From: Quercus robur
Lineage: Eukaryota > Streptophyta > Magnoliopsida > Fagales > Fagaceae
Reading direction: 5' to 3'
NCBI RefSeq assembly: GCF_932294415.1
Contig: NC_065537.1
Span: forward strand, 52,186,302-52,250,301
Length of the DNA: 64,000 bases
A program made the translations under genes and the position numbers. The notes under the pieces are model-generated. The model did not search any database. It was not told the DNA's origin and saw nothing but the letters and a program-made list of their open reading frames with translations. Below are positions 5,488-61,122 of the stretch, one piece after another (the first letter of the stretch is position 1; the number at the start of each line of letters is the position of its first letter).

Positions 5488-7476
5488 CACTTTAAGTTAA
5501 CATTTAGCATCTATTTTGATACCCTAACTCTAGGGTTTTTTCCCTAATAGAGTAAATTTCTACAAATAATGTTTTCAATCCTTTCTTTTTTCTTCACAAC
5601 CAAACAAAAGAATTTTTTATACTTTCATTTTTCCACACCTCAACCAAACACCATAAGAGAATTAAAATTAAAATTAAAATCTCTTTTATTCCTCCACTTT
5701 TCTATCATTTCCTAATTTTCTATGCTCCCACTTTTCCATTTAATAATCAAACAGAAAAGAACAAAGACAAAAGCACTAAAAAACCCATAAGCTGTAAAGC
5801 TTGAATGCATGATAAAGAAAAGTCAAGATTCCATCTCCACTTTTAGTCATACATGCAAACACATCCAGCCTAACACGTGTGTAAAATGTTTTTAAGGCAA
5901 TCACCGTCCATGGACTTTTTTATCAAGGGGATTTGCTTTGGATCTAAAAAATATATGGTTATAAATAGCTTTTTAAAGTCACAAACAACTTTTTTTTTTT
6001 AGACTAATTTAGTTATATATGGGTAGAAAACATCATGTTTTACTGAACTACTTTTATAAGATCACCTCTTTATCCTTCTTGATTTATATTTGCTAAGTCA
6101 TCTACTGCAGATTATGATTCTTATAGACTTTCATCTATCTAAATACAAACTTCTACTCCAAGCACACACAATGGAGCCATAGAAATCCAAACCACAAAAT
6201 AATTTTTACTAATAATTCAGCAGATATTGTTAAAAGAAAAACATAACACAACTGCAACACATCAGAGGAATAGAGGATCAAAAAGCTTGAACCTCTACAA
6301 CACAAACAGACTAAATCAAACTACAGAAATTACATGGATATGATCTAGAAGATAGTTATACTGAGACTGACAAATTAAGCAAATAATAACAATCTCATTA
6401 AATTTCCGCAGTTTTATTCCTCCTCTTATCTCTCTTCTTCTGCAACATTATCACCATCATCAAGTAGGAGAAGACTTCCAATACAAATTGCCGTGCTAAA
6501 ATCACTAGGCAAATTCTGAATCTCAATCCGCTTGCCTCTTCTCTTTTTTATGTCATACCAAACAAGATTAGCACCGCTCTCATACCCCTCTTTCAACATA
6601 ACTTTCTTGCCATTCTTGGAAAATATTAGAGGTTATAACGAAATAGAAATAAAGGAAGAAACTGATGTGTGAACACACAGGAAGAACAGAGAGAGAAATT
6701 GAGAGAAGAGATTAGAAACTTTCTCTAAATTCTGTATTAAATGAATCTGTACATACATCAAGCTTATATACATCTCTGAAATCAATCACCCAAAACAGAG
6801 AGCAACGGAATAACAGAAAGAATAACAGAAATGGGAGAAGGAGCCAATGGAGTTAGTTACAACACGTGTGGGAGTTAGTTACAATACGTGTGCCATAATC
6901 TGAGTTAAATAATCAACCAAGACTACATGCCGTTTAGCTGCCCTTCTAAGTAGGCTTGTAGCTTAGTTTATTTGTAGTGTCGTTTTACTCTTCCTTTCAG
7001 TCTTTTTATTCTCTGCTCCTTTCTTCTTTGTTGTCTGATACTCCCCCTCAAGATGAGACTCAGAATTATGTATGTTTAATACATTCATCTTGGAAATTAA
7101 AAACTTCAACTGCTGACTGCATAAAGCCTTGGTAAACAGATCAGCTAGCTGTGTATGTGTGGGAGTGAAGAATAAACGAATCACCTTTTCTTGTACCTTG
7201 TCTCTAACTAAGTGGCAGTCTACTTATATGTGTTTTGTACATTCATGGAAGACAAGGTTCTCACCAATATAGATTGCTGCCTGGTTATCACAGAAAAGCA
7301 TGCCTGGTTGTGGATGATCAACTTCAAAATCCTTTAACAAAGCCAACAGCCAAGTCATCTCACAAACACTTAAGGCCATTGCCCTCAGCTTCAGCTGAGG
7401 ATCTAGAAACTATGGACTGTTTCTTAGATTTCCATGAGATCAAGGAGTCTCCTAAAAACACACAAAAACCAGTAGT

Positions 7477-7522
<46 letters not shown>

Positions 7523-20797: not shown

Positions 20798-22704
20798 AAA
20801 TATTTGGTGTAGCAGATATAGTAGAAGAACAGAACAATGTATCATGTATGATTCTTAAGCAGCGAAATATCTGGAAAACTTAGGAGAAATGCGTGAAGCA
20901 CTCCATAATGCAATGCTATTGGTTCTAACATACTTCCTTTGCATTTCTCTTCGTGCTATATAATATTTCGTATTGGTTCCAACAGCTACATTTAAAAACA
21001 GATTTTCATGCATTACACAGTACAGAGCTTTTATAGAAGAAAGAAAGCATAGTGAAATAGAATTCTCTAAAATTTTTTGGATAGTTGAATTCTTAAAATC
21101 CTACTCATTTATTATAGATGATACAAGTGATTGTAAGGTCGGACTAAACGATAAACACTCGCGATGAATCACATTATCGAGATGACATCAATGTGTTGGC
21201 AGCCAAGACCTCCCCAATGCTTAAATCAGTGGAAAAAAAGGAATTTTAGGGAACATTTCCTGATTTTCAGAAATCATGTCAGTGATGGAATGGAGATAAT
21301 GATCAATTTTATACACTATGTTTTGTATATTTTCACCTGAATCTGCCATTTTCCTTTCAGCCTCATCATGCCCATTGTTCACTTGTTTTGGAGAATGTAT
21401 TGTATTAGGTCTTTATTTTACTGTAGAAGTTGTTGCAAGCTTGCACCACATCTTTCACTTATTGCTCCAAAGTGACAGGCAATCCTTAACTGATCTTGAG
21501 AGAGATCATTTTGGTTAGCAACATTGTTGAGGTTCCACCTGTTGGAAAAATGGTGTATGGGGTGGCTAATGTTTTGAGCCAAAACTTATGTGAGGCACAC
21601 CTGTCGGATCTGAGTTGGGCCGGACGTGTTCTCTTCCATGAGTATATTATTAACGTTATTGAATTGGGCCCAATCCTTTTAGTATTTAATTAATATTTTT
21701 TTAGTAATTGTTTACAGTGAGTTTCCATAACAAAGTGGAACAATGTGTATGTTCACTATCAGGTGCAAGTGTGTCTATAAATAGGAGTCCCTCATTCATT
21801 ATTTTGGTTTCATTTTTTCATTCATGCATAGAGACATTTAGAGAGAGGGAAACATAGTTATGTCCATTGTGCACGAAAATTAATATAGTGCTTCTTCTGC
21901 TTGTTGTTGATCTATATATCTTGAGAGGCAGACGTTTATGAGTCTCAAAGCACCACTGATGAAATAGTGTAAGAGGGTGAAATCTGTAGTAAGGAAATAG
22001 TGTCAAACACTAACCTTGATCATATTTGCATTTATAATTTTGCATTCATCTAGTTTGTGAGAATATTTAATTGTTATTGATTATTTATGCATTGAATAGG
22101 TATTGTTCTTATTGTTGTTCTAGTTCATTGAATCACAAAAGTAAATTATTTGTGTAATATTATTGCAACACCACCATGTGCCCATTGATTTTTTCCAAAA
22201 TATACAATCTTTGTCACACGAAAATCAAGAACTTGTTCCCACATGATACAATTGATTGTACTTCTAAACTAAAAGATAAACACATGCAATGAACGACCTT
22301 TCCAGCGCTTAAGTTCGAAAATAAAAATAAATAGGTTCTGTTATCAAGATATACTCAAAGAATCTGAACGTATTCACTCTCTTACGTCAATTGATGTCCA
22401 TCATAATTTACGATTCAAGATTTTTTTAATGAATCGTGTGAGCTAATAATAGGAAAATTTGATGTTGTAATGAAATGTTGTGAATTTTTGTTGTGATTAC
22501 TCATGGGGATAGGGATCCTAGGTTGGAGTTGACAGTCAGTCATATGTCTAACTGCTTGTCTATTCGGCATGACCATGCTAAACACAGACTCAAGCTACCG
22601 TATCGGTTGTGAAAATTTGGATTGAAATTTACCGTCTCCACCCTAATTTAAATTGATATAGTGTTAAAAATGTTTATTATATATGAAAATGCTCAATCCA
22701 CACA

Positions 22705-23894
22705 CACATATATATATTGCCAAAGCTGAAAGAAAATCTAATTAGATTTCAATTGAATTCTCAATTTTGCACCACTTGTCCTAGCCAAAACTCTAAGAAA
22801 ATCTAATTAGATTATAAATTAAAGTCCAATTTTATGTTATGTGTCTTTTCTAAATTTTCTACTTTTTGTGTCAAAATAAATGATGCATTAACATTTAACA
22901 TAGAAGCCAAGAAAACCACAATGATGATACTCATTGGCCTAAAGAAGAACATCTCACCTGCACACTTTTATTGGTGAACTCAATAGAGTTAGGAGCTCTT
23001 CTAATACCACTACCAAAACCGAGGAGTCCAATGAGAAAGACTTTAAAAGTAAAACCTCATCTCCTCCTCCCAATTCCATATCGTCATTCCAAGTCTCCCC
23101 CTTCTTCTCTCTCAACCTCTACCAACTAGATCCCCACACCGCCTTCTCCTCCTCCTTTTGGATTTCTCAGAGTAAGCCCAGGTTCAAACACAATGTTCAA
23201 TCCCACTCTTCCTTGCTTCACATTCTCATACATTACCACTTCATTGGCACCTCCAAGAAGATTCCAATCTCAATGATCAATTCTTGCCGTTAACTCGATG
23301 GTATCGAAATCTTGATGGTGTCCCCCCATGCCAAGTAAAACGATGATTGAATCTGCTAGCTTGATGATAACACACATAAGTTTCATTTGAATCTGTTCTT
23401 GGCTTCACTGTACATTCCCTGCTATCCCAATAATTAAAATTAGGTTTTTAACTAACAAAATTGAAAGAACCACAGTAACAATAATCTCATATGTTGATGA
23501 AGCATTCTCTAAACTATAGCTTATAGTAACATCTCAAATTACAAAACAAAACAAAACAAAAAAAAAATCTACAAAATAAGGAATTAAAAATAAACTAAGA
23601 TTTCTTTGAATCTTATTTTTTTTTAATCATTTTTAGTGTGTTTGGATTAAGATTTTGTTAATTTGTTAAAAGTGGACAAAAATATAATCATATATATTAT
23701 ATTAAGTTGAAGTACAATTTTAGAATTCAAATTAATTTCTAATTGTAGCTTAATTTTGTGTTGTGTCCAATTTAATTTTTTAAATTTTGGTGTCAAGTTA
23801 CCTCCATTCATAATGCTCAATGTGGAAACTAAGATGAACATCTTATCATCACAATTGTTAATGTTTTTGTGCGTAAGCACGGGCTACATGCTAG
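22705..23894 (+). mobile_element. Non-autonomous Helitron in block A
   Basis: The right end has the Helitron 3' signature: a short hairpin GTGC-GTAA-GCAC (23869-23880), then GGGCTACATG and terminal CTAG (23891-23894), followed by T. The left end is AT-rich (TATATATATTGCCAAAGC). Block B is uninterrupted at this point (CAATCCACACATTTTGTATA at 52625), so the insertion lies between A and T, as Helitrons do, and postdates the duplication. No Rep/helicase is encoded. The exact left base is uncertain by about 5 bp. The inner C-rich stretch (23030-23330) may be captured sequence, but I cannot name it. Confidence 0.82.
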
Positions 23895-25091: not shown

Positions 25092-25809
25092 ATTTTTAGA
25101 TCTACTTTCTCTTTCTTTCTACCTTAGAGAAAAACCTCCCAAACAAAAACTCCGACCCATTTTTTCACCATTTCACACCTCTAAGAACCTAGGTGAGCTT
25201 CTAAAGCCCTTTTTGAAGGTGGGATGATGTAACATCTTCCATAGCTACACCCCCTTCCTTTTTATCTTGTAAACACTATTTATATATATGAAATTCTCTC
25301 TTTTTTATCTATTGATTTTACATATTGTTCTATATCTCTCTATTTGTGTATGTTTATTTTTTGGCGAAAAGTACCTTTTAGTCCCTACATTTTTAGGCTA
25401 TTCCTATTTTAATATCTACATTTTATTTTTATCGCTTTTAGTCCCTATCTTGAAAAACGCTTCCCGTTTTGATTCCTGCCGTTACATCAGAAACAGAGAA
25501 AGCTGACATGGCAAACAGTAGGAATAAATTATACTAAATTAATGTCCACGTGGCCTAAATTAATAATAAAAAATGTTTTTTGGCATTAAAAAATGCCACG
25601 TCAGCATCTAAATTAAAAAAAAAAATTAATTTATTAATTTTAACTAAATAAAAAACAGAATTAAAAACTAAAAATAATATGAATTGAGATCTAATTATGT
25701 CTTGAACAAGAGCAATAAGAACACAAACTCAGAAATTAAAAAAAAAAAAAACAAAAAAAAACAAAAAAAAAAAAAACAAAACAAAACAAAACAAAACCCA
25801 AAAACAATA

Positions 25810-26304
25810 CTAACTATTGAGTTTTTGGGGCTTCCCAATCTTGTTCCCCCAATAACCTCTCCTCACAGGGATCACAAACAACTTAGCCAAAATGATAGCA
25901 CCACGAATGCCGGTGGCGACTTCCTTGCTGCACTTGACGCCAAGTCCAATGTGGCCGTTACCGTCACCGACAATGACGAAGGCCTTGAAACGGGTACGCT
26001 GACCGACAAGGGTTTGCTTTTGAACGGGCATGATTTTCATGACCTCGTCTTTGAGGCCGAGGCAGAGCTCATCGATGATTTTGTACTCCTTGATTGGGAG
26101 GGAATGGAGGTAGATCTGCTCCAAAGACTTAATCTTGTTGGATTTAACGAGACGTTTGAGCTTCGTGACTGGGACCCACTTCTCCTCCTCCTCCTCCTCG
26201 TGATGGGCCCTACGCCTTCCACCACATCCCTTGTCTCCCCTGGGACGTCCTCCGCTGAAGCCTCTGTCGAAGCCACCGCATTCTCCTCCACCACGCTCAA
26301 CCAT
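25810..26304 (-). pseudogene. RPS2: 40S ribosomal protein S2 (uS5) N-terminal fragment captured by the Pack-MULE
   Basis: Starting at the ATG at 26304, the frame is open for 164 aa. It begins with a Gly/Arg-rich tail ([11 protein letters not shown]), then [87 protein letters not shown] and [14 protein letters not shown], after which it leaves S2 sequence and stops. Full plant S2 is about 280 aa, so the C-terminal ~40% is absent. A small deletion relative to the usual VGPSLKDEV is visible. An upstream ATG at 26337 would add 11 residues. The frame is unbroken, but function in the ribosome is unlikely because the C-terminal half of the fold is missing. Confidence 0.88.
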
Positions 26305-26352
26305 GATTTCTTTTGGAAATGAGAATGAGTAGAGCAATGATGAAGGAAGGAG

Positions 26353-26361
26353 AAACCCTAG
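26353..26361 (-). promoter_or_regulatory. Telo-box upstream of the captured S2 fragment
   Basis: AAACCCTAG lies about 50 bp upstream of the S2 start codon. Telo-boxes (AAACCCTA) are typical of plant ribosomal protein gene promoters and 5' UTRs. Its presence suggests that the Pack-MULE took part of the 5' control region along with the coding exon. Confidence 0.6.
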
Positions 26362-27627
26362 CAGGGGATTTAAAATTGGTCCAAAATGTTTTTGGGTTTT
26401 GTTTTTTTTTTTTTTTTAATTTATGGATTTGTGTTCTTGGATCGGGGTTTGTGTTCTTGTTATTTTTGTTCAAGGCACACTTAAATCTCAATTCATATGA
26501 TTTTTAGTTTTTAATTTTTTTTATTTAGTTAAAATTAATAAATTAAATTTTTTTTTTAATTTAGATGCTGACGTGGCATTTTTTTAATGCCAAAAAACAT
26601 TTTTTATTATTAATTTAGGCCACGTGGACATTAATTTAGTATTATTTATTTTTGCCGTTTGTCACGTCAACTTTCTCCGTTTTTTATGTAACGGCAAGGA
26701 CCAAAACAGGAAGCTTTTTTCAAGATATGGACTAAAAGTGGTAAAAATAAAAATATAGGGACTAAAATGGGAATAGTCTGAAAATGTAGGGACTAAAAGG
26801 TGTTTTTCGCCTTATTTTTTATACCCTTTACTCTTTAAAACTTTATATACTAGTAAAAAAAAAAAAAAAATTATCATTTTCTCATTGTTGTCTTCTCTCT
26901 TTAAATCCCTTGGGTTTAAATAGAAATAACAACCCAACATCTTTGATAAATCCTCATCTTTCTAACTAAAAAGCTTGTGGAGGAGTAGCCTCGAACACAG
27001 CCTGCCTTAGTAGGAAGTTGGTGATTTACCATAGATGGGTTTCTCTTAAATGGGTCCTAAAGCTTGTTCCTAAGCATAATATGGGTATGCTTCCGGAAAA
27101 ATGATAGAGGTACCAATGACTCCCTTTTCCTAACATGAAAGAGAATAAGATTGGATGTGACAAGATTTAGCATTTATTTAGGAGAAATTTTATGTCTTTC
27201 TTGTACAAAACCTTTTTTTCAAAAACCAAATGCCAAGTATCTAATTTATTTTCTCTAAAACTTTAACATTGGAATTAAAATTAAAATGGGCTTCTATCTT
27301 TTGAATAGGTGGCAAGAATCTTTGGTCCGAGACTTTGGTTTACCTTAATTAATTAACTATCCTTGAATAGGTTTTTAGTTAATTAGTCAACTAAAATGAA
27401 TTAGATAAATAAGTGACCAATCACATCTAATACACCAATGGTTGGTGGCGACTCCTTAAAATAAAAATAAGAAAAGAGACTTACACACACCTCACCCTAT
27501 AAGCACATGTACACAAGAGAGTCACGTCACTAAGTACCCAATGTGCAACAACTCCCAATCCAGGAATTTTTCCAAGGGAAGGGTAGCATACACAGTAAGC
27601 AACAAAACCCTAATTTTATTTATTTAT

Positions 27628-39702: not shown

Positions 39703-42700
39703 ATGGCAGCTGTGGTTCCTGACTCCTCCCCTGATTCCATATTTGGCAAGGAAAATGGTATTCACCCTCCCAAACAGCTCGATGCTGGAGCTTTGTTTGT
39801 CCTCAAATCCAAAGGTTTGTAAGTTCTTTTCTTTTCCCCCAGTTCACAACAGATCTTTCAAATGCTTTCATTAGCACTTCATGACCACTCTAGGAGAACT
39901 TTGACCTGTTGATATAGAGCTTCACATGCTGCAACAGTACATGACAAATTTTCCCTTTTTTTATTCTGTACTTTCTAGCTTCATGTAGTATATTCTAAAT
40001 ATGAGTAATGATGATTGGTCCTAAACTATGTAATATTATTATTCTAAGGTTTGGTGTAAATTTTGTGGTATCATTAGGATCATGGTTGCACTGCGGATAC
40101 CATTTAACCACATCAATCGTAGCACCGGTGCTTCTGAGTCTTCCCTTTGCTCTAAGCTTGCTAGGCTGGGTTGGAGGAGTTGTATGCTTAATCCTTGCAG
40201 GTTTAGTAACTTTCTATTCCTACAATCTTCTATCTGCGGTTTTGGAACACCATGCACAACTTGGTCAGCGCCAGCTTCGGTATAGGGATGTGGCTAGTGA
40301 TGTTTTAGGTGGGTATATAATTATATATATGATTATATTTTCTACACTGCTCATAATATATATACCATTTCCTTCTTTATACCGACTTTTTCTTCCATGT
40401 TCAAGATATTAGAGAAACAATTAAAAACCTTTTTAAGATTTCAAGTGAAGTTTGATTTGGAAAAAGAACCAATACTTAATGATTTTTCTTTTCCTGCTGG
40501 GTTTATAATGAAAATAAATTGTTAGTTTTATGCATTTCCTCTCTTTTTTTTTTATATATATTTTCTTCTGTGTAATTGAGGCTTTGGTACCTGATGCTAA
40601 ATTGTCCAAGATATATATGTTGGCATTGGCAGGACCTAGATGGGGCAAATATGTTGTTGGGCCACTTCAATTTGGGATATGCTATGGCGCAGTTGTGGCT
40701 GGCAGCCTTCTGGGAGGGCAGAGCCTTAAGGTCAGTTGTGTCAGTTTACCACGTTTATTATTATGATACTCTTACATTCATTTTATTTTTTTAATATTCA
40801 TTTTCATGTTTTAAAATGTTTAAACATATCGGTATTAATTGTGAATATTGATGTAAAATAGTGAATATAAATGGTAAAATAATATTTTTCCTTATCAATT
40901 TGGGATATGTGATTAAATTCATTATATAGTTTATTATTGGGATACTTAATTGATTCTCTACTTAAATTTACTAGTAAACATCTCTAATTAATTCTCTCTC
41001 TCTCTCTTTCTCTCTCCTTTTTTTTGGTTGATAATTTGATAGTTAGGGGTAGAAAAATTTGAATATTAAATGTCTCTGTTGAAAACATCTGAAGGTGCTA
41101 GTTGGGTTACAAAACTCTTAACTTTAACCATAATTATTCAATTTTCTATATCCCATTATGAATTTAATTATTGAAATCTAGTATTATTTAAGAATTGAAA
41201 GGCAACATCACTTCTAAAGTATGGAATAATGACTTAAGATTCATATAGGAGATATAGGGGGTGTTTGGTACATATTTTCAAACAATTTTCAGTTTTTAAG
41301 TGCATGTACCAAACACTTCCTAGTGTTCAAATTCCCTTTTTCCATTCTTGTAAGGATTGAATTATATATATTTTTTTTTAAACAATATGCGAAATTGTCA
41401 AGAACAACTCCATTTCCAGAGTATGCACATCCAAATTTGTCCTTAGCGTTTGAAACAGCAAAGTATTTAAGATACCTCTCCGTATAGGAGCTTGCTTCAG
41501 GATAATAAATTTAACACTCAAGAATAAAAATATCAAATAATTTCTAATAAATTTCTCCACATTTAAATAGAATACACGAATAATTTATCCATAAAAAAAT
41601 AAAATAAAATAAAATAAGAGTTTAATGCAGATTGGTTGAAGGAGAAGAAAATATTTTGTGTTTTTCTTTTTGTAGTGGAATTAGGATTTATTTTCTTTTT
41701 CAAGTTCAATTAAAATCATTTTCTTAGTAATGCAGCATGGTAATAGGCATGTAGAAGCAGAATATGTAACATACAATACTACAACTCTTCCATAAAACCT
41801 AAATTCTACGAAAATACTAGACTAATAGGAAAAATAATAGAGAAAACTTGTCTAACAAACATTTATTTTCTTCACACCTATAAGCTGAAAAGCATGAATG
41901 CAAGATAAAGAAAAGTCAAGATTCCATCTCCGCTTTGCTCATGCTTTATACTTATTTTCTTCACACCTTTCTTTTAGTCAAACATGCAAACACACCCATA
42001 CTAACACATGTATGACTTTTTACTGGAAATGAAATTTTTTTATTAAAAGTATTGTAGATAAAGGTAAAAATTAGCTAAAATAGTACAATAAGACCCATAA
42101 ATAACACAAAAAATACAGTGAAACTCATGAATAGTAGCAAAAATAAACCGAATGATAAAATAAATTGACAAAAATAATCTTTGCCCAATAACCACATAAA
42201 ATGTTTTTTCAAGGCAATCACCGCCCAATTGAGTCGGTCATTACCATTTTGTTATCAAGGGAATTTGTTTTGGATCTAAAAAATTTGTGGTTATAAATAG
42301 CATTAAGGCCCTTTTGGTAGAGTTGTTAAATAACTCTTTTTTAGTTTTTAAATAACATTACACACATTTCTACATACTTTTTCACTCATACGTGTTTCAA
42401 AAAACTACAAATAACATTACTCAAACTTCTCTGCCAAATAAGCCTAGTCACAAACAACTTTTTTTTAGACTAGTTTAGTTATATATGGGTAGAAAACATT
42501 ATGTTTTACTGAACTACTTTTAAAAGATCACCTCTTTATCCTTCTTGATTTATATTTGCTAAGTCATCCACTGCAGATTATGATTCTTATAGACTTTCAT
42601 CTATCTAAATACTTAGTAGCATGGTGATTCATTTATACAAAACTTCTACTCCAAGCACACACAATGGAGCCATAGGCAATGAAGTGAAATCCAAACCATG

Positions 42701-45700
42701 AAATAATTTTTTCTAATAATTCAGCAGATATTGTGTAAAAGGAAAAACATAACACAACTGCAACACATAAGAGGAACAGAGGATCAAAAGGCTTGAACCT
42801 CTACAACACAAACAGACTATATCAAACTACAGAAATTACATGGATATGATCTAGTAGGTAATTATACTGAGACTGACAAATTAAGCAAATAATAACAAAT
42901 TCATTAAATTTCCGCAGTTTTATTCCTTCAACATAACTTTCATGCCATTTTTGGAAAATATTAGAGGTTTGCGATGATGAAAATTCCAAGGCACGGTGCC
43001 TTGCTTAATTTTATAAATCCGAGTCCAAGAACTCTTCACCCCATATTCTTTCATCAACCACACATCATTACACTTCAAGAAAGAATTCACCATAAAACAG
43101 AGATATCCTCCTAAAACTGTTGAGTTAGCATAAGCTTTGACACTAGGCCTGTTTGATAGAGGAGTTTGAGTAGTATTATTTGTAGTTTTTTGAAATACAT
43201 GTGAGTGAAAAAATGTGTAAAAATGTGTATAATATTGTTTAAAAACTGAAGATGATTGTTTGAAACACCCTACCAAACAGGCCCTATATTGTTAAATAAA
43301 AGACTAAACAAAGAGCTTTTATTCAAAACTTAACTCTTGGAATTACACACTTCACAAGCACTATTATTGCATCAATATACACACGGCACTGTTGCAATCA
43401 CAAGCACTATTATTGCATCAATGCACACACGGCACTGTTACAATCACACTATTATTGACTTTGCTTCACTTCTCTTTAATTTACTTCACCTATCACTTGA
43501 CTTCTCTTCACCTCACACACTTCACCTTACACGTCTCTCACACCTCTCATGCTTTATGTCGGTTAAGAAAACCGTCTTTGAAGCTTCTAGCTTCATCTTT
43601 TTAAATACTTTATTTACCAAGCTTTTAGTCTATTCTATAAACATGTGGCTGAGATTAACTTATGGAGGATGTTCTAGAGATTGTGTGAGACGTTCTAGGA
43701 GTTTAGATTTTTAACAAAAACCACCAAAGACTTGAAATTTCTCAGTGGCAAGATCAGAAGTAAGAAGAGACTCTGGTCGGGTTGAATATGAAGGCCCACA
43801 TGGAGGAGCAATTAACCAATGTATAGCTCCATTCAAGGATGCCGAACTCGAACATATGGAGCACTCCTTCATTTTCCAACAACGTGATCTAAGACTATAT
43901 ACCTTGACTTCAAAGTCTAATAGCGGCGTTATCTTCTTTAGAAAATTCAACTATCCTCACTACCTTATAATCATCATTATGTGGATCATGGCCAAATGCA
44001 AAATTGGGCCTTCGAGAACCAGAATAATCTCTAGGATCATTATGTGGATTCCAAATTGCAATCTCTAAATCTCAAACGTGAATGCAAACCAAACCGTGAC
44101 AGTAGTCCAAGATATTGGTTTTGTAATTTGGTTGGCATAGTGGCACGGGAATTTGCACAGCCTTGCCAAATCCGTTATTGTTGTCGAGGAAAGGGACCGA
44201 GAAGTAACGATCGGTTGGATAGAAGTCATGTTCCTTGAGGATGAAGGCTTGATCTTTGTTGGCCTCGATGGAGTGCTTAAGGTGCAACTTGACGAAGTCA
44301 GGGTCCTTGATTAAGGAATACCATTGTTTGGAAACGCTGAGGAAGCGTACTAGAGACTTGACGGGTAATCGGGATAGTATTTTGGTGATTAGCTCTAGCT
44401 GAAGATAAGACACCATGGAAGAGATTTGATTTTTTTTTTTTTTTTTTTTTTTCTGGATAGTGAATAGTGTTAGATTACTCAGATTAGTATTGTTATTTCA
44501 AGATTCGGGGAATTTAAACAACAGTTTTCGTTGTTTAAATATTTGGGTTCATGAATTTTTTCTGGTCGTCCAATTTCTCTTTTCACTTTTTTGGGTTCAG
44601 GGATTTTGCTTTTGCAAGCCAAACTGGATTTTTAGATTAGTTTGCCCTCTTGCCTAGAAAAAAAAAAAAAAAAAAGTATTATTAACATATTTTTGGAAAA
44701 AGAAAAATTTTTTAAAAAAAATCACTAAATTCCTATTGCCTCTATTCCTTTGCTTCTTTTTTTCATCAATCACTTCACAATTTCTCTGTTTTAAATTATA
44801 GATATAGTTTTTATTTTTATTTTTACTTAACTTAACTAATTAAAACAAGTAGATAAAAATAAATTATCCCAAACAGATACATTTGTAAAACAAATATCTA
44901 AGACATTTTTTCTATTTAAAGCACAAAAAACAACACATATGATAGAAATAACTTATTTTTTTGTTACATAAAAAATGATAAGGATGTAATCATCGGTAGA
45001 AATCATATATCTGAGTGTAATCATAATAGTTTACTTTTTTTATGAGAAATCAATCATTATCTTATTTAGAGTATTCTATTACACGTTTATTTTTCTTTCT
45101 AATTAAAGTTTTAAAATGAAAAAAGAAAAAAAAAAAAAAAAAAAGATATAACATGCAGCACTGTAGTTGATGGTATATACAATGAAATACTAAGCGTTAG
45201 AAAGAGAATTTCTAATTCACTGGAAAGGGATGACAAGTCAAATCCACTCTTTTAGTTGAATATGATAATTTATAGGGAGTGCGTACTTTTAAGATATGTT
45301 CTAACTTACTAACTTTATTTTTTCATTTAATTGTTGGTAAATTTTGAATCTAAGACCTACCAAATCTCACATGACCAAGTAATCTTCTTTGCTTGGTTGA
45401 TATAGGCTAGAAACTTTACTAATTAAGCTAGTTGATATGCACAAATACTAATCCTTTTATCACCACAAGGTAAAAGAAGATAAGTTATTCATCTCAAAAC
45501 AAATAATAATGAAATGTCTAGAGAAAATTAGATTCTCCATTTGGACTATAATCTAGACAATGAAAAAGATCATAATGAAACTCTGAGAACAGATTTCATA
45601 TACAAAATGCTCTGTTTTTCTTGTCACTAACTCTTAATTTTTCTTTTTGGCAGTTCATTTACTTGCTCCATAACCCAAATGGGACTATGAAGCTTTACCA

Positions 45701-47302
45701 GTTTATTAGTATGTTTGGAGTATTTATGCTGTTTTTAGCACAAATTCCATCCTTTCACTCGCTGAGGCATATCAATCTTGTCTCTCTAGCCCTTTGCCTT
45801 GCTTTCAGTGCTTGTGTCACAGCCGGTACCATACATGTCGGTAAGACTTCAGCACCACAAATTACATGAAAACATGTCTCCGAATATGAATATCACAGAC
45901 ATTGAGACATACACTGCTTTTACAGGATATTCCAAGAATGCTCCTACTAGGGACTATTCCTTAAATAGCTCCGGACTAAATCGTGTTTTTGGTGGTGTTA
46001 ATGCTGTTTCAATCATTGCTACTACATATGCCTGTGGAATTATTCCGGAAATACAGGTTTAGTTCTGCCCCTGCATTCATTTGTTGCCAAGAAAAAAATT
46101 TTGAGAAAAGAAAGAAAAAACAAATCCTATTTTATTCCCCTTTCTTTATTTTGAGCTTGTATATACAAACTGAAATTCCAGTTAAATTGTGATATAACTT
46201 GCATCTAACTCCGATTATAGTATGAAAGAAAGTATCTCTTGTAACAGTTCTATCAAGTCTAATAGCACAATGAATGAATATATACCATATGATTCAATTT
46301 TCTGTTCTTTAGTCAAAATTGGTCTCACCAACTTTCCATTCATTGGGTTAATTCATTGATAACTTGTATAACTGTTAACAAAAATACTTTCTCCTAATGT
46401 GTAGATCAAAGTTAGATTCTATATACTTCAATGCCAATGATTATAAGTGAGAAATAGAACTAGGTTGCCTTATATTTCTTCCATTCACAGGCAACCATAG
46501 CTCCTCCAGTCAAGGGTAAAATGCTCAAAGGTTTATGCGTCTGTTACTCTGTTATACTCGTGACTTATTTCAGCGTTGCAATCTCTGGGTATTGGGCATT
46601 TGGCAATCAGGCTATGGGGACTGTTCTTTCAAATTTTATGGGTAATGGACAGCCTTTGCTACCAACTTGGTTTCTCTTGATGACCAATATTTTCATTCTT
46701 CTGCAAATATCAGCTGTCACAGTGGTAAGTCCAACTCAAATATTTAGCTTGATAATGCCAAAAAATTAAACTGATGTTTACAATTTTCAGACATTTGTAT
46801 ATTATGTTATTGACTTAGCACCAATCATATTCATTGTCATGTCGGTCTGTAAACTTCACAATCCTTCCCTCAAATATGGCAGCATTAACTTTCATGACTA
46901 TATTACAAATTGGTTAAAATGCAGGTTTACTTGCAACCAACAAATGAAGTGTTTGAAAAGTGGTTTGCAGACCCCAAAATGGATCAGTTTTCCTATCGTA
47001 ACGTTGTGCCAAGGTTGATTTCCCGGTCAATATCAGTGATTATAGGTTCATTAATTGCGGCTATGCTACCGTTCTTTGGAGATATCATGGCAGTTTTTGG
47101 GGCATTTGGATGTATTCCTCTAGATTTTATTTTCCCCATGGTTGTCTACAATATGACTTTCAAGCCCTCAAAGCGTGGCCTTGTTTTTTGGGGTAACACG
47201 TTCATTGCAGTGGCATCTACAGCTTTGTCCATCGTAGGTGCAATAGCATCAGTTCGACAAATAGTTATCGATGCCAAAACATATCGTTTGTTTGCTAACT
47301 AG
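39703..47302 (+). CDS. GAT1-like: GABA transporter 1-like amino acid permease, copy B
   Basis: Seven exons: 39703-39814, 40078-40308, 40633-40730, 45654-45840, 45926-46056, 46491-46724 and 46925-47302, all with GT/AG borders and the same phases as copy A. The joined protein is 456 aa, an AAAP-family permease expected in the plasma membrane. It differs from A by scattered substitutions (for example S for A before [13 protein letters not shown] for [18 protein letters not shown] for [20 protein letters not shown] for [11 protein letters not shown]). It is intact. The C terminus is RLFAN-stop, one residue shorter than A's RLFANM, because a Helitron inserted inside the AAT codon: its terminal CTAG supplies the third base of the Asn codon (AAC) and the TAG stop. 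All transcript sequence after the stop is therefore Helitron-derived. Confidence 0.93.
41256..41321. mobile_element. Very short foldback (MITE remnant)
   Basis: GGGGGTGTTTGGTACAT at the left pairs with ATGTACCAAACACTTCC at the right over 66 bp. It lies in intron 3 of copy B and is not seen in copy A. Confidence 0.55.
42306..42446. mobile_element. hAT-like MITE in intron 3 of copy B
   Basis: The left end AAGGCCCTTTTGGTAGAG pairs with the right end (reverse complement AGGCTTATTTGGCAGAG). It is about 140 bp and absent from the matching point in copy A (near 5970). Termini of the GGCCYNTTTGGYAGAG type recall hAT MITEs. Confidence 0.65.
43145..43284. mobile_element. hAT-like MITE disrupting the F-box pseudogene
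   Basis: AGGCCTGTTTGATAGAGGAG at the left pairs with the reverse complement of CCTACCAAACAGGCCC at the right. It is about 140 bp and of the same general type as the element at 42306-42446. An 8-bp target duplication is not evident. Confidence 0.7.
43352..43443. repeat. Two tandem 46-bp units
   Basis: CACAAGCACTATTATTGCAT followed by CAAT.CACACGGCACTGTT occurs twice in succession. It lies inside the unidentified insertion (43290-43716) in the F-box pseudogene, which has TGTTAAA...TTTAACA ends but no target repeat. Confidence 0.75.
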
Positions 47303-47588
47303 TAAGTTGCCCGTGTAATGCACAGATAACGTTGTAATGTTTTGTGTAAATTTGTTTTTTAGAGAATGTTATACATATATTATAGCATATTTGTTATAAA
47401 AATTTGTTAGTAATGAGTTCATCATAAGAAGTAACAATTATATATTGCACATACATATCTATTATAATTATTCTGTTCAAGTAATGAGCAAAAAAAAAAA
47501 AAAAAACAACAACAACAACATTGGAGTAATATTGTATAACAAAAGTTGATAAAAGCATATTAATTCATTTTATATTATTGATCTTTAT

Positions 47589-49499
47589 CCCCTTCCTACT
47601 AATAGTGGAAGCCCCAAGTATTTCTCATGATGTCTGACTATCTCGACCCCTAACTGGATAAAGGATCAGGTGGGAAGGAAAATTGTGGGGTGGAAAGGCA
47701 AGCTCTTATCCAATGCAGGTAGAGAAATCCTTATAAAAGCTGTTGCACAAGCCACATCTATATACACTATGAGTGTTTTCAAGTCTAGACTCTCTGTGCA
47801 AGGATTTGAATTCAATAATGGGTAATTTCTAGTGGGGTCAGAAAGAAAGGGAAAGGAGATTGGCATGGGTTTCTTGGGAGAAATTATGCAAACCAAAGTC
47901 CGAGGGAGGTATAAGGTTTAGGGACCTCAAGGCTTTCAATCTAGCACTCTTAGCGAAGCAAGGATGGAGAATTTTAGAGAATCCAAACTCACTAGTTCAT
48001 AGAGTTTACAAAGCTAAGTACTTTACAAAGGAGTCGTTCTTAAATGCTCAAGTGGGTAGGAAGCCCTCCTACACGTGGCGAAGTATTATGCCAGCAAGAG
48101 ATATAATTATGAAGGGCTCTTGGTGGTGCATAGGCAATGGGCAAAAAGTTCACATTTGGAATGATAGGTGGATCCCAAGACCAAATTCCTTCAAAGTAAT
48201 CAGTCCTCGGAGAGCTCAGTATAAGGAAGTGATGGTTTCGGACCTCATTGATACAAATAGGAGGAGCTAGGATGCAACCAAGGTCAAAAGCATTTTAATC
48301 CCGCATGAACACAGATAATGTTGGGCATCCCAATAAGCTATAGACTACCTGATGATTCGGTCATATGGGCTGGGACCCCAAATGGAAAATTTACAGTGAA
48401 GAGTGCCTACAGGGTAGTGCAAAATTGCCTAAATGAGGGGTCTACAAGGTCTGACATGGGCAGCAGCTTTGACAATGCGAAGATGAAAGCTATATGGAAA
48501 ATGGTTTGGCAATTGGAGTGCCCAAGCAAAATAAAACACTTCATGTGAAGGGCGTGTAAGAACATTCTTCCTACTAGAAATAGGCTAAAGGTGAGGGGAG
48601 TAGGTTGTGAGGACTGCTGTGCTCTGTGTGGTTCTAGTGAGACATCAGGGCATATCCTTTGGGATTGTAAATTTGCAAAGGAAGTATGGAATGGAATGAA
48701 AACTAAACTCCCTGCTCTGCCTAAACCCGTGCTTGAGTTCTTGAATTTGTGTGGGAGGTAGTGGATTCTTGTCCAAATGTTAATTGGGTGCCGTTTGTTG
48801 TGACTGCATGGAACTCGTGGAATAATAAAAATACAGTGATACATGGTGGACAAAACAAAGGGAAGGTGGGGCTTATTAAGTCAGTGGTTGGTTATGTTGA
48901 AGAGATCAAAAGTGAGAAGACAACATAGAGGAGAGCTCATTTAGGTGCTGCACAAATATGGACTCCATCAAAGCAAGGATGGTATAAGGTTAATACGGAT
49001 GGAGCAGTGTTCAGGGAGGCAGGGAGCTGAGGCATAGGAGTGGTAGTCAGGAATGATAAGGGACAGATCATGGGGGCACTGAGCAGAAGACTGGAGCTGC
49101 CACTGGGAGCGTTGGAGGTAGAGGCAAAAGCTGTGGAAGAAGGGGTCCAATTTGCAAGGGACCTTAGCCTTGGTCAGATAGTAATTGAGAGTGACTCTCA
49201 AGTGGTGGTCAACTCATCACGCGATCTAGGCCTGACTCAAAGTTATGTCCAAAAAGTAATTGAAGGCACAAGAATGGGATTGTGCTGGTTTACTACGTGG
49301 GAGGTGTCTCACACTCATAGAGGCTGCAACGTCGCGGGTCATATTCTGGCAAAACATGCCAAGGTTGTACATGATTGTGACATTTGGGTGGAGGATACTC
49401 CATCTATGATTGTAGATCAAGTACTAAATGATGTAAACTGTATGACTTCCATTTCGGTTTAATGAAATGTATATGTTGTGAATCAAAAATATATATATA
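47589..49499 (+). mobile_element. L1-type LINE, 5'-truncated, nested in the Helitron
   Basis: The ~1.9 kb insertion is flanked by an 18-bp perfect target duplication, TATATTATTGATCTTTAT (47571-47588 and 49500-49517), and ends in an AT tail. It begins within the end of the reverse transcriptase (GWKGKLLSNAGREILIKAVA). It then has WVSWEKLCKPKSEGGIRFRD and WRILENPNSLVHRVYKAKYF, a zinc-binding C..CG....H.....C region near 48600-48670, and a plant-type RNase H (KVNTDGAVF, VVRNDKGQIMGALS, VIESDSQVVVN, HTHRGCNVAGHILAKHA). Several stops and frameshifts make it inactive. The 5' truncation is usual for LINE insertion by target-primed reverse transcription. Confidence 0.93.
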
Positions 49500-49867
49500 T
49501 ATATTATTGATCTTTATTATGTGATGTAATAAAGAGCTTCATTACAAAATCTCGTTTTTTGTTGTTTCTTCAATGATTTGTTATTGTGGTATGGCGATGC
49601 TTGTAAAGCTTGTTAAGGGGTATGTTATCATCATATGTTTCTTCATCTTCAACATTTGAAGCTTGGTACGATCCTATTTGTTTAATTTTTTAGCTTCCAT
49701 CACTTTTTCCTTTTATTGCATTATTTGTGTTAATCATTAATGAATTGGCATTGGAACATTCTTGACTGGATCTTACAAAGTTTGGACCTCTAGATTTGTT
49801 GTCGTGATTTTTCGTAGATATTTGCATTCATTTTAAATTTCAGTGATATAACAATTTTTTTGTAAAT

Positions 49868-49902
<35 letters not shown>

Positions 49903-50270
49903 TGTTAATTTAGGAATAGTGTAACAAAAGGGTTAATATAGTATATTGGATTGTGTATTTTTCTTTTCTTCTATATCTTTTTGTCATTTGAAGGTGCATA
50001 AAAACTCTTAGCAACTATGTAATTTTCAAAACCATCTTTTAGATTGAATTCATTCAAATAAAGTAGGAAAATGCTTTTTTTTATTTTTTCCAAAAATTTT
50101 CATCAATTCATGTGGGATTCCTTCTCCAATATCAATTTGCAAATGTGGAATTTAATATATATTATGATCAATAGTTTTATAATAATTTTAAATAAGTTGT
50201 ACCTTAGTTTGTTTTTCAGCAAGATCTCTTGCAGATTTATTTAGGATTTTCTCAGAATCTCAATCAAATA

Positions 50271-50590
50271 TCACAAAAGTTGTTTTGTCAGTTGCATCAA
50301 AAACTTCAATTTGAATCCTATATCTAAAGTAGTTTGTAATTTTATATCTAGTAGTTCTAGTGAGATAAATATATTATAAATATTTGGAGATATAGTTAAT
50401 GTGAGTGCCTCTAATCTTGGGATAGAGAGATTTGTTTTTATTTCACATTTTGCACACCAAAATGATCCTGATTGTGGTTTGATCTTCATTCCACAAAACA
50501 TGCACGAAATATAATAACAACCTATTGTTGTATCAATCTTGCTTATTGTTGCAATACTCTAGTAGTTCACATCTTGCAATGAACTTTGAA
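50271..50590 (-). pseudogene. Replication protein A (RPA1-like) C-terminal domain relic in the Helitron
   Basis: The minus-strand frame reads ATISKIDTTIGCYYISCMFC then GMKIKPQSGSFWCAKCE, ending in PRLEALTLTISPN. The C-x2-C...C-x2-C zinc ribbon and the preceding YYISC match the C-terminal DNA-binding domain of RPA70-type proteins. Plant Helitrons often carry such genes. Only this part is recognisable. Confidence 0.7.
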
Positions 50591-51499
50591 GTTAATATGT
50601 ATTATTTTTTAATGTAAATAATATGATGTATTATTATTTTTTCATGTAAATGATGAGTATAATTTGAAATGATTAACAAACATGTTTCGTAAGATCCCAT
50701 TCAATGCATTTTATCTCTGTTATTGTCTTCATATTCTTTAAAGATAAATCCTCCTATGAAAATTGTTTTGCATGTATTTTTGGTATTTCTTGTATATATA
50801 GGATCATGTTTTTGACCATTCCTATCACTGATTTTTTTTTTTTTTTAAGAAAATACTATGTAAATGAAATTTTGTGAGATAGTGTATGTTATTTATCAGA
50901 CTTTTTTTGTTATTATAAATTTTAGAAATAGGCACTTGTCATTATTTTAGCAACCTCAGGAATCTCAAGATTTATATATATTTTTGTTGCACCAATCGAT
51001 GACGAAGAGAATTTGCCTGAATAAATTGCATAAAACATTATTAATAGACAAAAGCATATTGAATTGAAATTTAGAAAAAAAGGAATACATGATTTCATGA
51101 GAATGAGGTTTTCTAGAAGTATCATCTATACGTGAGGAAGGAGGAAGAGAGTTTGTAAGTGGATAAGAGTTTTGGCTTTAATTTACACGTTGGAAGGGTT
51201 AGACTTAGGTCATAATATGTAAGGCAATGAGTTTGGGTTCTTCATAGAGTTTGGTCTATTTTTAAAAGGTAGTCCATTTTATAAGAAATAACATTTGGTC
51301 TAATTGTCAAGAGCAGCTCATATTTTATATAACAGTAGAAATAAGTTACTATGATCTATTAGGTAACAATAAAAAAAATAAAAAATAAAAACTTAATAAA
51401 AAGAGGTAAAATGGCTAAATGCAAAATTAGAGCGCCACGTGGCAAGACTTCATGCACTCCTGTATGAGGTCTTTGCTTTTATTTATATATATTGATATT

Positions 51500-51614
51500 G
51501 ATTTCTAGTTCCAGACATCTTTAAGAATCATACATGATACATGTAGCAAATATAGTAGAAGAACCAGAACAATGTATCATGTATGATTCTTAAGGATGTC
51601 TAGAACTAGAAATC
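51500..51614. repeat. Inverted duplication beside the Helitron end
   Basis: A 42-bp arm (51500-51541) is the reverse complement of 51573-51614 with two mismatches, around a 31-bp spacer. The inner part of the right arm (GTATCATGTATGATTCTTAA) is present once in block A near 20840, so the left arm is the new copy. It directly adjoins the Helitron terminus. Confidence 0.85.
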
Positions 51615-53980
51615 TATATATATATATTGGTTTCCAACAACTACGTTTATATGAACTAGGGATCAAGGGAATGAGCATACTTTTAAGAATAGATTTTCAT
51701 ACATTACATAGTACAGGGCTTAATAGATGAAAGAAAGCATAGTGAATTAAGATCCTCTAAAATTGTTATTACAGATGATACAATTGATTATAAGGTCGGA
51801 CTAAATGATCAACACTGAATGAATCACATTACCGAAGTGACACCATAGAAAATGAAGTGGACTTTGGATGGGCCTATAAGTAAGTTGGCTATTGAATTGG
51901 ACCCAATCCGTTTAGTATTTAATCAACACTATTTAATTAGTAATTGTTTATAATGAGTTTCCAAAACAAAGTGGAACAATGTGTTTGTTCACTATCGCAC
52001 TCTTTTATGAACAGGTGCAAATGCGTCTATAAATATGCATTTATCATTTTGCATTCATCCAATTTGTGAGTATATTTAATTGTTCTTGATTATTTATGCA
52101 TTTTAAAGGTATTTTACTTAATAACTTATTGTTGTTCTACTTCACATGATCACTAAAGTAAATTATTTGTGTAATATTTTTGCAACACCACCATGTGCCC
52201 ACTGACCATTTCCAAAATATACAATCTCTATCACATGTAAAACAAGAGCTTGTTCCCACGTGATACAATTGATTGTACTTCTAAACTAAATGATAAACAC
52301 ATGCAATGAACCACCTTTTTAACGCTTAAGATGTTTTTTTAATGACTCGTTTGAGTTGATAGGCAAATTGGATATTGTAATGAAATGTTGTGAATTTTTG
52401 TTGCAATTCTAGCTTTACTCTTGGGGAAAACAATCCTAAGTTGGACTTTGGAGTTAACAATCAATCATGCGTTTAACTGTTATTTATTCGGCATGACTAT
52501 GCTAAATAGGGACTTGAGCTACCATATCGGTCATGAAAAGTTGGATTGAATTTTACCGTATTTGCCATAATTTAAATTGATATCAAAATAGTATTAGATA
52601 ATGTTTATTAAATATGACAATGTTCAATCCACACATTTTGTATATAATAGATAAATAAGATTTAAAATTTTTCATGCTAACTAATTGAACTACAAAACTC
52701 TTAGCAAGCTTAACTACTGGGTTTATGGCTTTAAAGCTTTAAATTCCTAAGGATTTAGACAAAACCCTAATTATATTAATCAATGCCGGATGATAAGCAC
52801 TAATTCTTGACCAAACTGAATTAAATTTTATTTACTCACCTAATTGTCTCACTCAAGCCTCAATGGCATGTTTTTGTGTATGGTTATGGAGCACTCTCTT
52901 TTTACCTCTTGAGCCAAAGGCCACTTCCTCCCAGTCCTTCCTCCTCTTTCTATTTTCTAATGACTCAAGGACGTGGGATGATAATGTAAAAGAAGAAGAG
53001 TGAACAACCTTTGGGATCTGATCAGAGCCGCAATTGAATTTTCTAGTCCTATAAATTATAAAATTAGGCTATGCTAATCATCCATTCATCTATGAAAAAG
53101 AGAGTACCCTAATTCCTTCATAAAATAAACACAATATTACTGCTACTTGTGCTCTACTAATCATCACTTAGCACATTAAAATGCGGGTACCACCACAAAC
53201 CATGCCTCACCTCTCCCATGCTGGTTGGAGAATGGAGTCTTCTTTACCCTCAGTGGGATCAAAGATATCATTATTAACAGTGAAAGTCAATCAAATATAT
53301 AATGACTATAATTAAAAAATTTATAAATTACGTTTTAAAATTAGGACTTTTATAAGTTTACATTGTACTAGTAACATTGCAGACATACAAAATGTGTATA
53401 ATGTTTTACCATTTCTTTTTTTAAAAATGTGTACAACATTATTCACATTTTATGTGTCTACAATGTAAGCTTACATTATTTGTAGTAGTACAGTGTAAAT
53501 TAAAATTTTTCCTTAAATTTATGGTTTATAAATTGTTTCTATTATGGAACCTAAGAATTAGTAATCATTTTTGGAAGGTGAATGAATGAGAGAGGAAGAA
53601 GTGAGCTCAAGTATTCCTTATCTTGCACGTGATAGAGAAATTTTGGAGATAAAAGCACTTTCTGTTGGTACATCGTGAGAACGCATGTTATTTCTTGTTT
53701 GGTTGAAACATCTTTTTCCTTCAATAAACTTTGTCTACTTTAGATTTTTGTTCCTTTAAAAGGTTGCAAGTTTTGTTTTTGAAAATTTTTAGTTAATTTT
53801 GTTCTATTGTCCATCAAGGACAACCTTCCAGTTTTTTTAAAAAGGAAAAAAAAAATTGCTAGTATGTATTTTGTCCTAAATATATTGACCATGTTTTCAT
53901 TTCATCCCTAACTTTTAAAAAACTTCACTCGATTGGAACAATATAAACTTTTGGTCCATCAAGTTAATGATGAGGTTATT

Positions 53981-55273: not shown

Positions 55274-56310
55274 CTAGTATGTAGCCCCGTGCTATCGCAC
55301 GGGAATGGATATATTATTAATTATGAGTTTATTCATATTTAAAAGGCTCAGTTAAGTCTAAATTCATATTATTAACCAGAAAATTTCATTAACAAAACTT
55401 AGCAGTATATATATTTTACATAGAAAGATGAACCTTGGTGACAATGTTTATCCAAAAGATCCATTCACGCTTTTGAATCTTCAATCTCTATTAGTGATTG
55501 AAATTTTCGTAGCTTAAAAAATTTAAAATTAAAAAAAAAAAAACCCTCAGAGTTGTACTCATTTTGTAGTTTTACAATGGGTCATTTTCTAACATGATGG
55601 ACATTTGTGTGAAGAAAAAACCTCTGAAGTTTCATGGCTGATAAAATAAATTCTCTCCAATCTCTTTTTATAGAGAGAAGGGTTTGTGCGTGTTTTTATA
55701 CATTCTTCATAGTTGTATTATCACGAAGCAGGTCCAATGGATTTAGATTGGTACTACCGATTCCCAAAGCATGAGTGTTTAATGTGTTATTAATTTCATC
55801 TCATTGGCTTCTGCACATGACAGTAAAATTAAAAATAATTAGATTATACACGTGTATAGTAAAATTGGACTCCAATTTCAAATTCTAATTGAACAATTGG
55901 AATGATAATATATGATAGTAACAACAATAGGAAAATTCAAATAAAATTTCGAATTAAATTGTAACAATCTAAATAAAAAATTCCAGTAAAAAGACAGGGT
56001 GGAGTGATATACTCCAAGAAGGCGACCAAACTTGTGTAAATATAGAATAATAAATCTCTCTTTGGAAAATTTACATTGTTCATAACCTTTACCTTCACTG
56101 AACATTTTAAAAACATAGTGACTCACATCTGCCATCCAGACATCTACAGCCGGGTCCTCTCCAATTCGCGTGAGATCCCATTGATCACTAAGTTCCTTTG
56201 CAGCCTGCAAAAAGTATCATCCATCGGTCCACAGCAGTGCTTTCTTCATTTTATAGGTGCCAAACTTGAACAAAAAGCCAAATATAAGGATAGTGAATTT
56301 TATGCATAAT
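55274..56310 (-). mobile_element. Helitron 3' end with captured sequence (far end not found)
   Basis: On the minus strand this ends CCCGTGCGATAGCACGGG (a 7-bp-stem hairpin, 55286-55303) followed by GCTACATACTAG and T. This is an undecayed Helitron 3' terminus, with the CTAG at 55274-55277 after host A. The element extends to the right. Its 5' end was not identified, so 56310 is only the limit of the described content. Confidence 0.75.
56093..56204 (-). pseudogene. Exon-like fragment, probably captured by the Helitron
   Basis: A 112-bp open segment reads AAKELSDQWDLTRIGEDPAV then DVWMADVSHYVFKMFSE. It is bordered by TTTTTGCAG on its 5' side and GTAAAGG on its 3' side, i.e. intact acceptor and donor. 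Composition is much less AT-rich than its surroundings. It looks like one internal exon of a host gene. I do not recognise the protein. Confidence 0.5.
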
Positions 56311-59468: not shown

Positions 59469-59749
59469 ACTCCCAAAGGATTCTTCTTTAAATTTATTTT
59501 TAGCTTTCAAACAATGTTTATTGGCCAACTTATTATTATTTTTTTAGTTTTTATTTTTGCATTACCTTTAGAAGGAAAAAAAAATAAAAAGAAAAAAAGA
59601 GCTTTTGATACTCCGGTTGAATATAGAAAAGATTGTAGTTTCAATAATAGCTTCTCCTTAAAAAAATGTAGGTAATTTCAAATATATTAAGAAAATTTAT
59701 CTATCTATGTATAATTGGATTAGAATTTTTCAGTGTCCTTTTTTCAATG

Positions 59750-59915
59750 AGAAATGTTATGTCTACAACATTTTTACAACAAATCCAAAGTGGTAGGTTG
59801 TTATTGATTGTTATGGATGGGCAAAAAAGTAATTTAAGTTGTGAATTCAAATTTAAACTAATAACAACTTACTGCATATAATTTGTTGTAAAAATGTTGT
59901 GGACATAACACTTTT
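59750..59915. mobile_element. Foldback MITE, ATGTTATGTC family (copy 2, best preserved)
   Basis: GAAATGTTATGTCTACAACA at the left pairs with the reverse complement of TGTTGTGGACATAACACTTT at the right; the arms (to ACAACAAAT) are about 33 bp with few mismatches. Length is about 166 bp. Confidence 0.8.
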
Positions 59916-61122
59916 CTTTTTCAATACTTCCAAAACTAATTCTATTATTTAAGTGAAAATGATTTAAGTTTAACAATAAGACAAACTGAGGACATAAAGG
60001 TATTTGAGAAATTTAAAATTCAAATTCTATAAAATTAACACATGCATTTTGTCCTTTCTATATTTTCAAAACTAATCCTATTATTTCAATTAATGAAAAT
60101 TTAGTAATTATATAATTTATAATTCAAATTCCATAAAATGAAGTCAAAACTAGGCTTTTTTTTTATAAAAAAAATTTAAAAAGAACATTTGAATATGCAC
60201 ATAACACGTATGGAGATGCTAGCTTTCTATATGATAGTATAATGAAATTCACTTTCTAAATGATTCAGATCTTTAAAAAAAATGGATTGGATCCTTTATA
60301 ATCAATTTCAGATCTTGTAATTGGATTTTAGAAGAAATTAATGTTGCATTTGATTTATATAATACGATCGAACTTTTTTTTATTAGAAGATAACAGGACC
60401 GAACTTGAATCAAATTTGAACTTTAAAATGACCTATTAATATCTAATTGTATGTAACGTAATTTACAAAACGAACAGTGATAGGAATGTGTACTTACTAT
60501 ATCGATTGTATGGCTTTATATTTCAAATAGGCTGGCAAAGTTGACAAAGATTGATTTGGCATAATCAACCTACGTGTTAATTTTCAATTCACAAATTGGT
60601 AAATTATATAAATTTTGCTTCGCACTTCATTCTCTTGGAATTGATTAATTGAACATCAAACTGAACTTCTGCACTTTTTTTTTTTTTTGGAAACGCCACT
60701 TTGTATTATAACTTCTGAACTTCTGCACTTAATTGAATATATTAACTTTGAATTGACCCAAAAATAAAAGCCTTTAAAGGTGTTTAGAAAAGCAGAGATT
60801 TGTATTCACACTCAATCGCAATTTCAGCCACTAATTTACAAGCTATAAAAACCTATACCTTGTCTTCATGTTTTTTTAAGCATTACCTACCTATGTATTT
60901 TTATAACACTTAGTATACAAGATTAACTAGTGAGTGAGGAGGATGAGCATCTAATAAGATCAATGAGACCGAGTGCATCACTTTCAAAGATAAAAATTTT
61001 AAAACCTTCCTATTTTGTATTACCTTTATTTCAAATTGTTGTTCATATTTAGAAAATTCAACTTTTTAAGAGAATATCATTTAATACATTGTTTGTCAAT
61101 TAAAAATGTACAAATTTTAAAA

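Follow-up and report, generated by a model that had tools for sequence, protein, structure and literature searches.

A probable Helitron end at the stop codon of one of two GABA transporter 1-like gene copies in Quercus robur

Why does one of two neighbouring copies of a transporter gene end one residue short of the other, and where does its stop codon come from? The question is raised by the window, i.e. the whole stretch of 64,000 nucleotides analysed here, which contains two copies (A and B) of one seven-exon gene, with their 3' ends about 26.5 kb and their 5' ends 36.3 kb apart:

3381 to 20797, plus strand: copy A, GABA-transporter-1-like gene, 457 aa, C-terminus LFANM followed by the stop
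3381-3492, 3752-3982, 4295-4392, 19034-19220, 19306-19436, 19888-20121 and 20417-20797, plus strand: exons of copy A
39703 to 47302, plus strand: copy B, GABA-transporter-1-like gene, 456 aa, C-terminus LFAN followed by the stop
39703-39814, 40078-40308, 40633-40730, 45654-45840, 45926-46056, 46491-46724 and 46925-47302, plus strand: exons of copy B

The coding sequences of A and B were assembled from the aligned exons, and both have AG/GT borders at all six introns and no internal stop. The copy B protein contains the Pfam domain Aa_trans (PF01490) at full length (residues 37-443, 212.5 bits, 1.1e-62), and many of its close relatives in the homologue search bear the name 'GABA transporter 1-like'. 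Judged by the domain and the names of the homologues, A and B would be GABA transporter 1-like members of the AAAP family. They differ at 22 of 456 residues, with dN 0.025 and dS 0.083. Intron 3 is 14.6 kb long in A (4393-19033) and 4.9 kb in B (40731-45653), where by eye the minus strand carries the apparent start of an F-box-type reading frame at about 44000-44420. Upstream of copy A, GC-rich, fold-back-like sequence at about 3010-3150 is flanked on either side by a repeated stretch of about 200 bp (2780-2968 and 3156-3378); in copy B, by eye, this stretch is single and the fold-back absent.

The copies agree through ...TTTGCTAA, ending in GCTAA, and by eye they then part at A^T, copy B reading TTT GCT AAC TAG (47291-47302) and copy A reading TTT GCT AAT ATG TAA (20783-20797). 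At this border the following can be distinguished:

47299 to 47302, minus strand: CTAG, the putative Helitron 3' end in its own reading, at the exact point of A/B divergence
47300 to 47302, plus strand: TAG stop of copy B, apparently derived from the element
Copy B gene end carrying the element border: CTAGTAAG
Predicted empty-site reading for the copy B locus without the element: GCTAATATGTAA

The CTAG contributes the C of AAC together with the TAG stop of copy B. Copy A preserves the unfilled site, GCTAA|TATG at 20790|20791, which places the insertion point between A and T. The 3' side of the insertion, A|CTAG, is clean, and a target duplication is absent by eye. The frequency of CTAG in the window is 0.0033 per position, and that of AT steps is 0.097. 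The two endings as first read in the preliminary description are confirmed, its placement of the insertion between A and T agrees with the empty site in A, and its proposal that CTAG makes the stop is in line with the TAG at 47300-47302 and with a protein one residue shorter than that of A.

Plant Helitrons have CTRR at the 3' end and TC at the 5' end and insert between an A and a T, leaving no target duplication, and their 3' hairpin is GC-rich, of 15-20 bp, and placed about 10-12 bp from the end. The best reading of the insert in copy B is that of a minus-strand Helitron, degenerate and non-autonomous, because of its CTAG end, the empty A|T site in A, two similar 3' ends elsewhere in the window and a broken gene for the RPA C-terminal domain lying in Helitron sense. 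Without its nested LINE the element measures about 2.27 kb. The features bearing on this reading are:

47299 to 51495 (right end inferred), minus strand: full extent of the copy B insert, interpreted as a non-autonomous, degenerate Helitron with a LINE nested in it
47307 to 47329, minus strand: candidate subterminal stem-loop, TTATCTGTG-CATTA-CACGGGCAA, 4 nt from CTAG as scored
50203 to 50555, minus strand: broken RPA1 C-terminal (PF08646) remnant, two colinear frames in Helitron sense
47589 to 49499, plus strand: nested LINE with Pfam zf-RVT and RNase H-like RVT_3 (1.2e-14 and 1.9e-18)
22705 to 23894, plus strand: copy A 3' flank, a separate insertion of Helitron-like form, its 3' end reading GTGCGTAAGCACGGGCTACATGCTAG before a T
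55274 to 55304, minus strand: a third 3' end resembling that of a Helitron, CCCGTGC-GATA-GCACGGG...CTACATACTAG, before a T

On the minus strand the 3' end of the copy B element reads TTATCTGTGCATTACACGGGCAACTTACTAG followed by T, and under the best reading its 3' border is ...CACGGGCAACTTACTAG, then T. The 27 nt on the inner side of this CTAGT were compared with those at the 119 other CTAGT sites in the window, among which the best two likenesses were found at 23894 on the plus strand and 55274 on the minus strand. Such likeness, together with the position of CTAG at the exact divergence point, supports the earlier suggestion that the sequence met here is a 3' terminus of Helitron type, read from the other strand. 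The score against 55274, a site selected beforehand by its hairpin, was reached by 90 of 20,000 dinucleotide shuffles, and that against 23894 by 10 of 20,000, the latter figure being flattered since this site was picked afterwards as the best of the 119.

The terminus at 55274 (TCCCGTGC-GATA-GCACGGGG-CTACATACTAGT, ending in ...CATACTAG) ranks first of 298 hairpin-plus-CTRRT sites and reads as a textbook Helitron 3' end with a well-formed hairpin. The stem at 23894 consists partly of wobble pairs, by eye, and is outside the top 25 of the hairpin scan. For the insertion ending there, the BLAST alignment of A with B is interrupted at 22704/52635 and taken up again at 23897/52638, and the empty site in copy B lies at about 52635-52638 (exact border by eye). 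After the CTAG at 23894 copy A continues as does copy B, which has no insert, and the 5' end of this insertion is not TC. The copy B terminus ranks 31st of the 298 by hairpin score; with six Watson-Crick pairs, two wobble pairs and one mismatch in its nine positions, its stem is decayed. The DNA hairpin was dropped as evidence on its own because its folding is not above that of shuffled sequence (z 0.11; 96 of 200 shuffles fold equally well).

The RPA remnant consists of a zinc ribbon (50430-50555) followed by an OB piece (50203-50331). Its two PF08646 frames taken separately give 3.4e-4 and 0.014, both below the Pfam cut-off, and the hand-joined fragment gives 48.5 bits and 1e-12 (cut-off 28.5). 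A PDB search with a minus-strand frame including part of the remnant returned three matches, all of them weak (E of 0.67 or more) and to an unrelated protein. RepHel, a protein expected of autonomous Helitrons only, was absent from the nine frames scanned, a set that excludes the minus strand of 47299-49499 and the plus strand of 47299-47699. Within the window there was no second copy of the element interior, and the 5' 100 nt of the element found nothing better than E 0.095 elsewhere in it. The LINE is enclosed by an exact 18-bp target-site duplication, TATATTATTGATCTTTAT (left 47571-47588, plus strand; right 49500-49517). A reverse-transcriptase core domain was not found in any of the three frames read on the plus strand over 47700-49460, and the LINE is apparently 5'-truncated.

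The right junction of the insert is less simple than the preliminary description implied. The candidate 5' ends, with TC on the minus strand, are the GA at 51494-51495 and an alternative GA at 51500-51501, each reading GA|T on the plus strand. With the flanks joined at 51495 the sequence reads GCTAA|TAT, in agreement with copy A for three bases and then rearranged. Two features follow:

51487-51542 and 51572-51627, not assigned to a strand: arms of an inverted repeat at the right junction (56 nt, 91% complementary, 29-nt loop)
51542 to 52635, plus strand: displaced native 3' flank of B, matched by BLAST in pieces to A 20808-22704

By eye, the left arm repeats the host 3' flank in inverted orientation, over about 42 nt, and takes the place of host sequence of about 14 bp that A has at 20794-20807 and B does not. 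The window was scanned for inverted repeats with 40-nt arms, at least 36 of 40 positions complementary and a loop below 90, with a quick pre-filter and with one-base-rich stretches skipped, and the right junction was the sole site found. This scar could be the result of a template switch, or of fold-back repair, where the Helitron meets the host. An origin of the inverted repeat in a local re-insertion that gave a new 5' end was rejected, there being by eye no donor copy beside the right arm. Similarity between the copies returns at A 20808 and B 51542, and the native 3' UTR, said earlier to have been replaced as a whole, is displaced rather than lost: it now starts about 4.2 kb further downstream, with the loss of about 14 bp and a local inverted duplication. 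With the 3' UTR so displaced, an ordinary transcript of copy B would have its end within the Helitron or farther downstream.

Our preferred reading, to which we give a probability of about 0.87, is that a non-autonomous Helitron inserted at A|T in copy B after the gene duplication and that its terminal CTAG became the stop. The transporter gene would first have been duplicated. A non-autonomous Helitron carrying the RPA remnant would then have entered B between the A and the T of the next-to-last sense codon, AAT, in an orientation in which its 3' end points back toward the gene. Joined to ...GCT AA, the CTAG would give GCT AAC TAG, so that translation ends one residue early and transcripts of B would read into Helitron DNA and not into the native 3' UTR. 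During the insertion or later, a template switch or fold-back repair may have inverted the copy of the host flank and removed the missing base pairs, and a LINE would have landed within the Helitron. We infer this order of events, and the relative dating, from one pair of paralogues.

The age of the duplication was considered from an alignment of 19 of the best 120 homologues. Among the matches listed, the most identical is P0004 from Castanea sativa, with 95% identity to copy B; by E-value it is outranked by three longer proteins of other plants at 72-76% identity. Copy A and P0004 have in common some states that look derived against the 18 outgroup rows, which suggests that A and P0004 are probably orthologues and that the duplication is probably older than that split. 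In this alignment the last residues of the Fagus row, P0006, are uninformative, its gene-model end being odd.

What the insertion did to the protein depends on which C-terminus is ancestral. Among the best 120 of 1,623 homologues, 111 end exactly one residue past an LFA[N/D]-type motif, and this last residue is M, V, I or L in 108, H in two and G in one. Of the other nine, six have longer tails and three have no such motif. None of the 117 motif-bearing homologues among these 120 has a stop directly at the motif. The pattern of LFA[N/D] plus one further, nearly always hydrophobic, residue is drawn from these homologues and is not a curated feature, and copy B, ending at N, fails it. Because 111 of the 120 homologues keep the extra residue, the ending of copy A is taken as ancestral, and copy B would have lost the conserved terminal residue. 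The earlier statement that the protein was left unharmed is unsupported as it was put, as the residue lost is a terminal hydrophobic one and no motif-bearing homologue stops as B does; the function of the copy B protein may be unchanged. The last hydrophobic residue may have a role in leaving the endoplasmic reticulum, and the titles and abstracts searched gave no test of it in ER exit for this transporter family.

The missing C-terminal residue is also what one would expect if copy B were a pseudogene undergoing decay, at the end of which the insertion lies as neutral debris, a reading that is compatible with a Helitron insertion. It is in line with apparently derived changes at conserved sites of B, such as F106Y, where 18 of 18 outgroup rows have F, and with the larger distance of B from P0004 (25 differences in 456 residues, against 12 in 457 for A). 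However, the frame of 456 codons and the six introns are intact, dN/dS between the copies is about 0.31, a ratio that belongs to the pair and is not assignable to the B branch alone, and B is hardly farther than A from P0006 (67 differences against 64) or from the Juglans row P0010 (85 against 84). We therefore consider the decay of copy B unlikely.

A second alternative, which is likewise compatible with the Helitron insertion itself, concerns the RNA. The stop is overlapped by a donor-like hexamer:

47302 to 47307, plus strand: GTAAGT, donor-like, in the context CTA|GTAAGT, with 7 of 9 consensus positions

The G of this site is the G of the TAG stop, and splicing at GTAAGT, with the exon ending at 47301, would remove the stop; the TAG would then be unused, or used only sometimes, and joining to an acceptor, whether within the element or farther on in the displaced native 3' flank, would change the C-terminus. 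Scored against the nine-letter splice donor consensus, the site equals the top scorer, also 7 of 9, among the 12 genuine donors in A and B, and there is no other with seven or more matches in 46925-47600. But the bases at -1 and -2 (A and T) are off consensus, and a score this high is reached by 30 of the window's 3,047 GT sites on the plus strand, the majority of which presumably go unused. Chimeric isoforms of transposons and genes with alternative ends are described for thousands of Arabidopsis loci (PMC10241880), and this lends such splicing some plausibility. We nevertheless regard it as distinctly unlikely in copy B.

It is tempting to speculate that CTAGTAAGT acts as a two-way switch, in which the TAG stop and the 5' splice donor GTAAGT have a G in common, and we hold this to be quite improbable. 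If it were true, unspliced transcripts would give a transporter without the conserved C-terminal hydrophobic residue and splicing would take away the stop and add a new tail; a single insertion would thereby have given the duplicate a C-terminus, a 3' UTR and perhaps a location different from those of A. Under the preferred reading of a Helitron-made stop, the TAG would be used in copy B mRNA and the poly(A) site would lie inside the element. Downstream of the stop are TTGTAA (47332), TGTAAA (47345) and TATAAA (47395), and their role as poly(A) signals within the element is speculation.

It could also be argued that CTAGTAA is native and arose from TATGTAA by two small indels, the true border of the insert lying a few bases to the right. 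GTAA comes next in both copies, and the BLAST match between A and B overruns the junction to 47305; the presence of GTAA on both sides is what carries it there. This explanation requires two compensating indels and a CTAG formed by coincidence at the fitting distance from a terminus that resembles two other termini ending in CTAG, and we find it very improbable. That the insertion is ancestral and was precisely lost from A is scarcely credible, as nothing was found in its favour, the ending of A fits the family while 0 of the 117 motif-bearing homologues end like B, and by eye the A site bears no trace of the element.

With regard to known systems, many plant Helitrons carry an RPA gene according to extracts of PMC4683698 and PMC3288121, and the Mothra mother element of rice has RPA and lacks RepHel as described in part of PMC4683698. 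The copy B element resembles Mothra, as the same extract presents it, in its CTAG 3' end, A/T insertion, candidate subterminal hairpin and RPA-like gene, and differs from it in having a broken RPA, a decayed hairpin, a rearranged 5' junction and a nested LINE. In Arabidopsis, transcript 3' ends provided by transposons are common, and Helitrons are among the enriched families in transcripts of this kind (PMC10241880). As in the TE-associated alternative transcription termination (TE-ATTS) outlined there, a transposon would give the 3' part of the transcript of a gene; unlike it, the copy B case is one of DNA sequence, and the element terminus would give the stop codon as well. In the RPP4-ATCOPIA4 example of that excerpted account, a Copia element deprives the RPP4 protein of its 3' part, whereas copy B loses one residue to a Helitron end. 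Template switching at a similarly small scale, the proposed cause of the inverted copy at the right junction, is known from short-range mutations in great ape genomes, as a partial view of PMC7954356 indicates; in copy B, unlike in those, the inverted copy sits at a transposon junction.

Gene ends made by transposons are thus already known, and copy B is a clean single case. The titles and abstracts searched gave no description of a Helitron terminus serving as the stop codon of a gene, which is weak evidence with few subscription journals covered. What the locus offers is a base-exact case in which a transposon terminus has apparently become a functional-looking stop with 456 codons intact, and in which the empty site is kept in the neighbouring paralogue. 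It suggests that a duplicate can exchange its entire 3' end in a single step. Copy B also offers a question at the level of RNA, i.e. stop against overlapping donor, and one at the level of protein, namely how far the terminal hydrophobic residue matters in GABA transporters.

Other repeats were observed in the window. Downstream of copy A there is an inverted repeat at 25363-26811, with arms of about 420 nt that are 86% alike, and it looks like a fold-back or terminal-inverted-repeat element. A weaker inverted repeat is present at 59746-59919 (82% over 60 nt, 54-nt loop), and a tandem array with an 82-bp period extends over 11232-11743.
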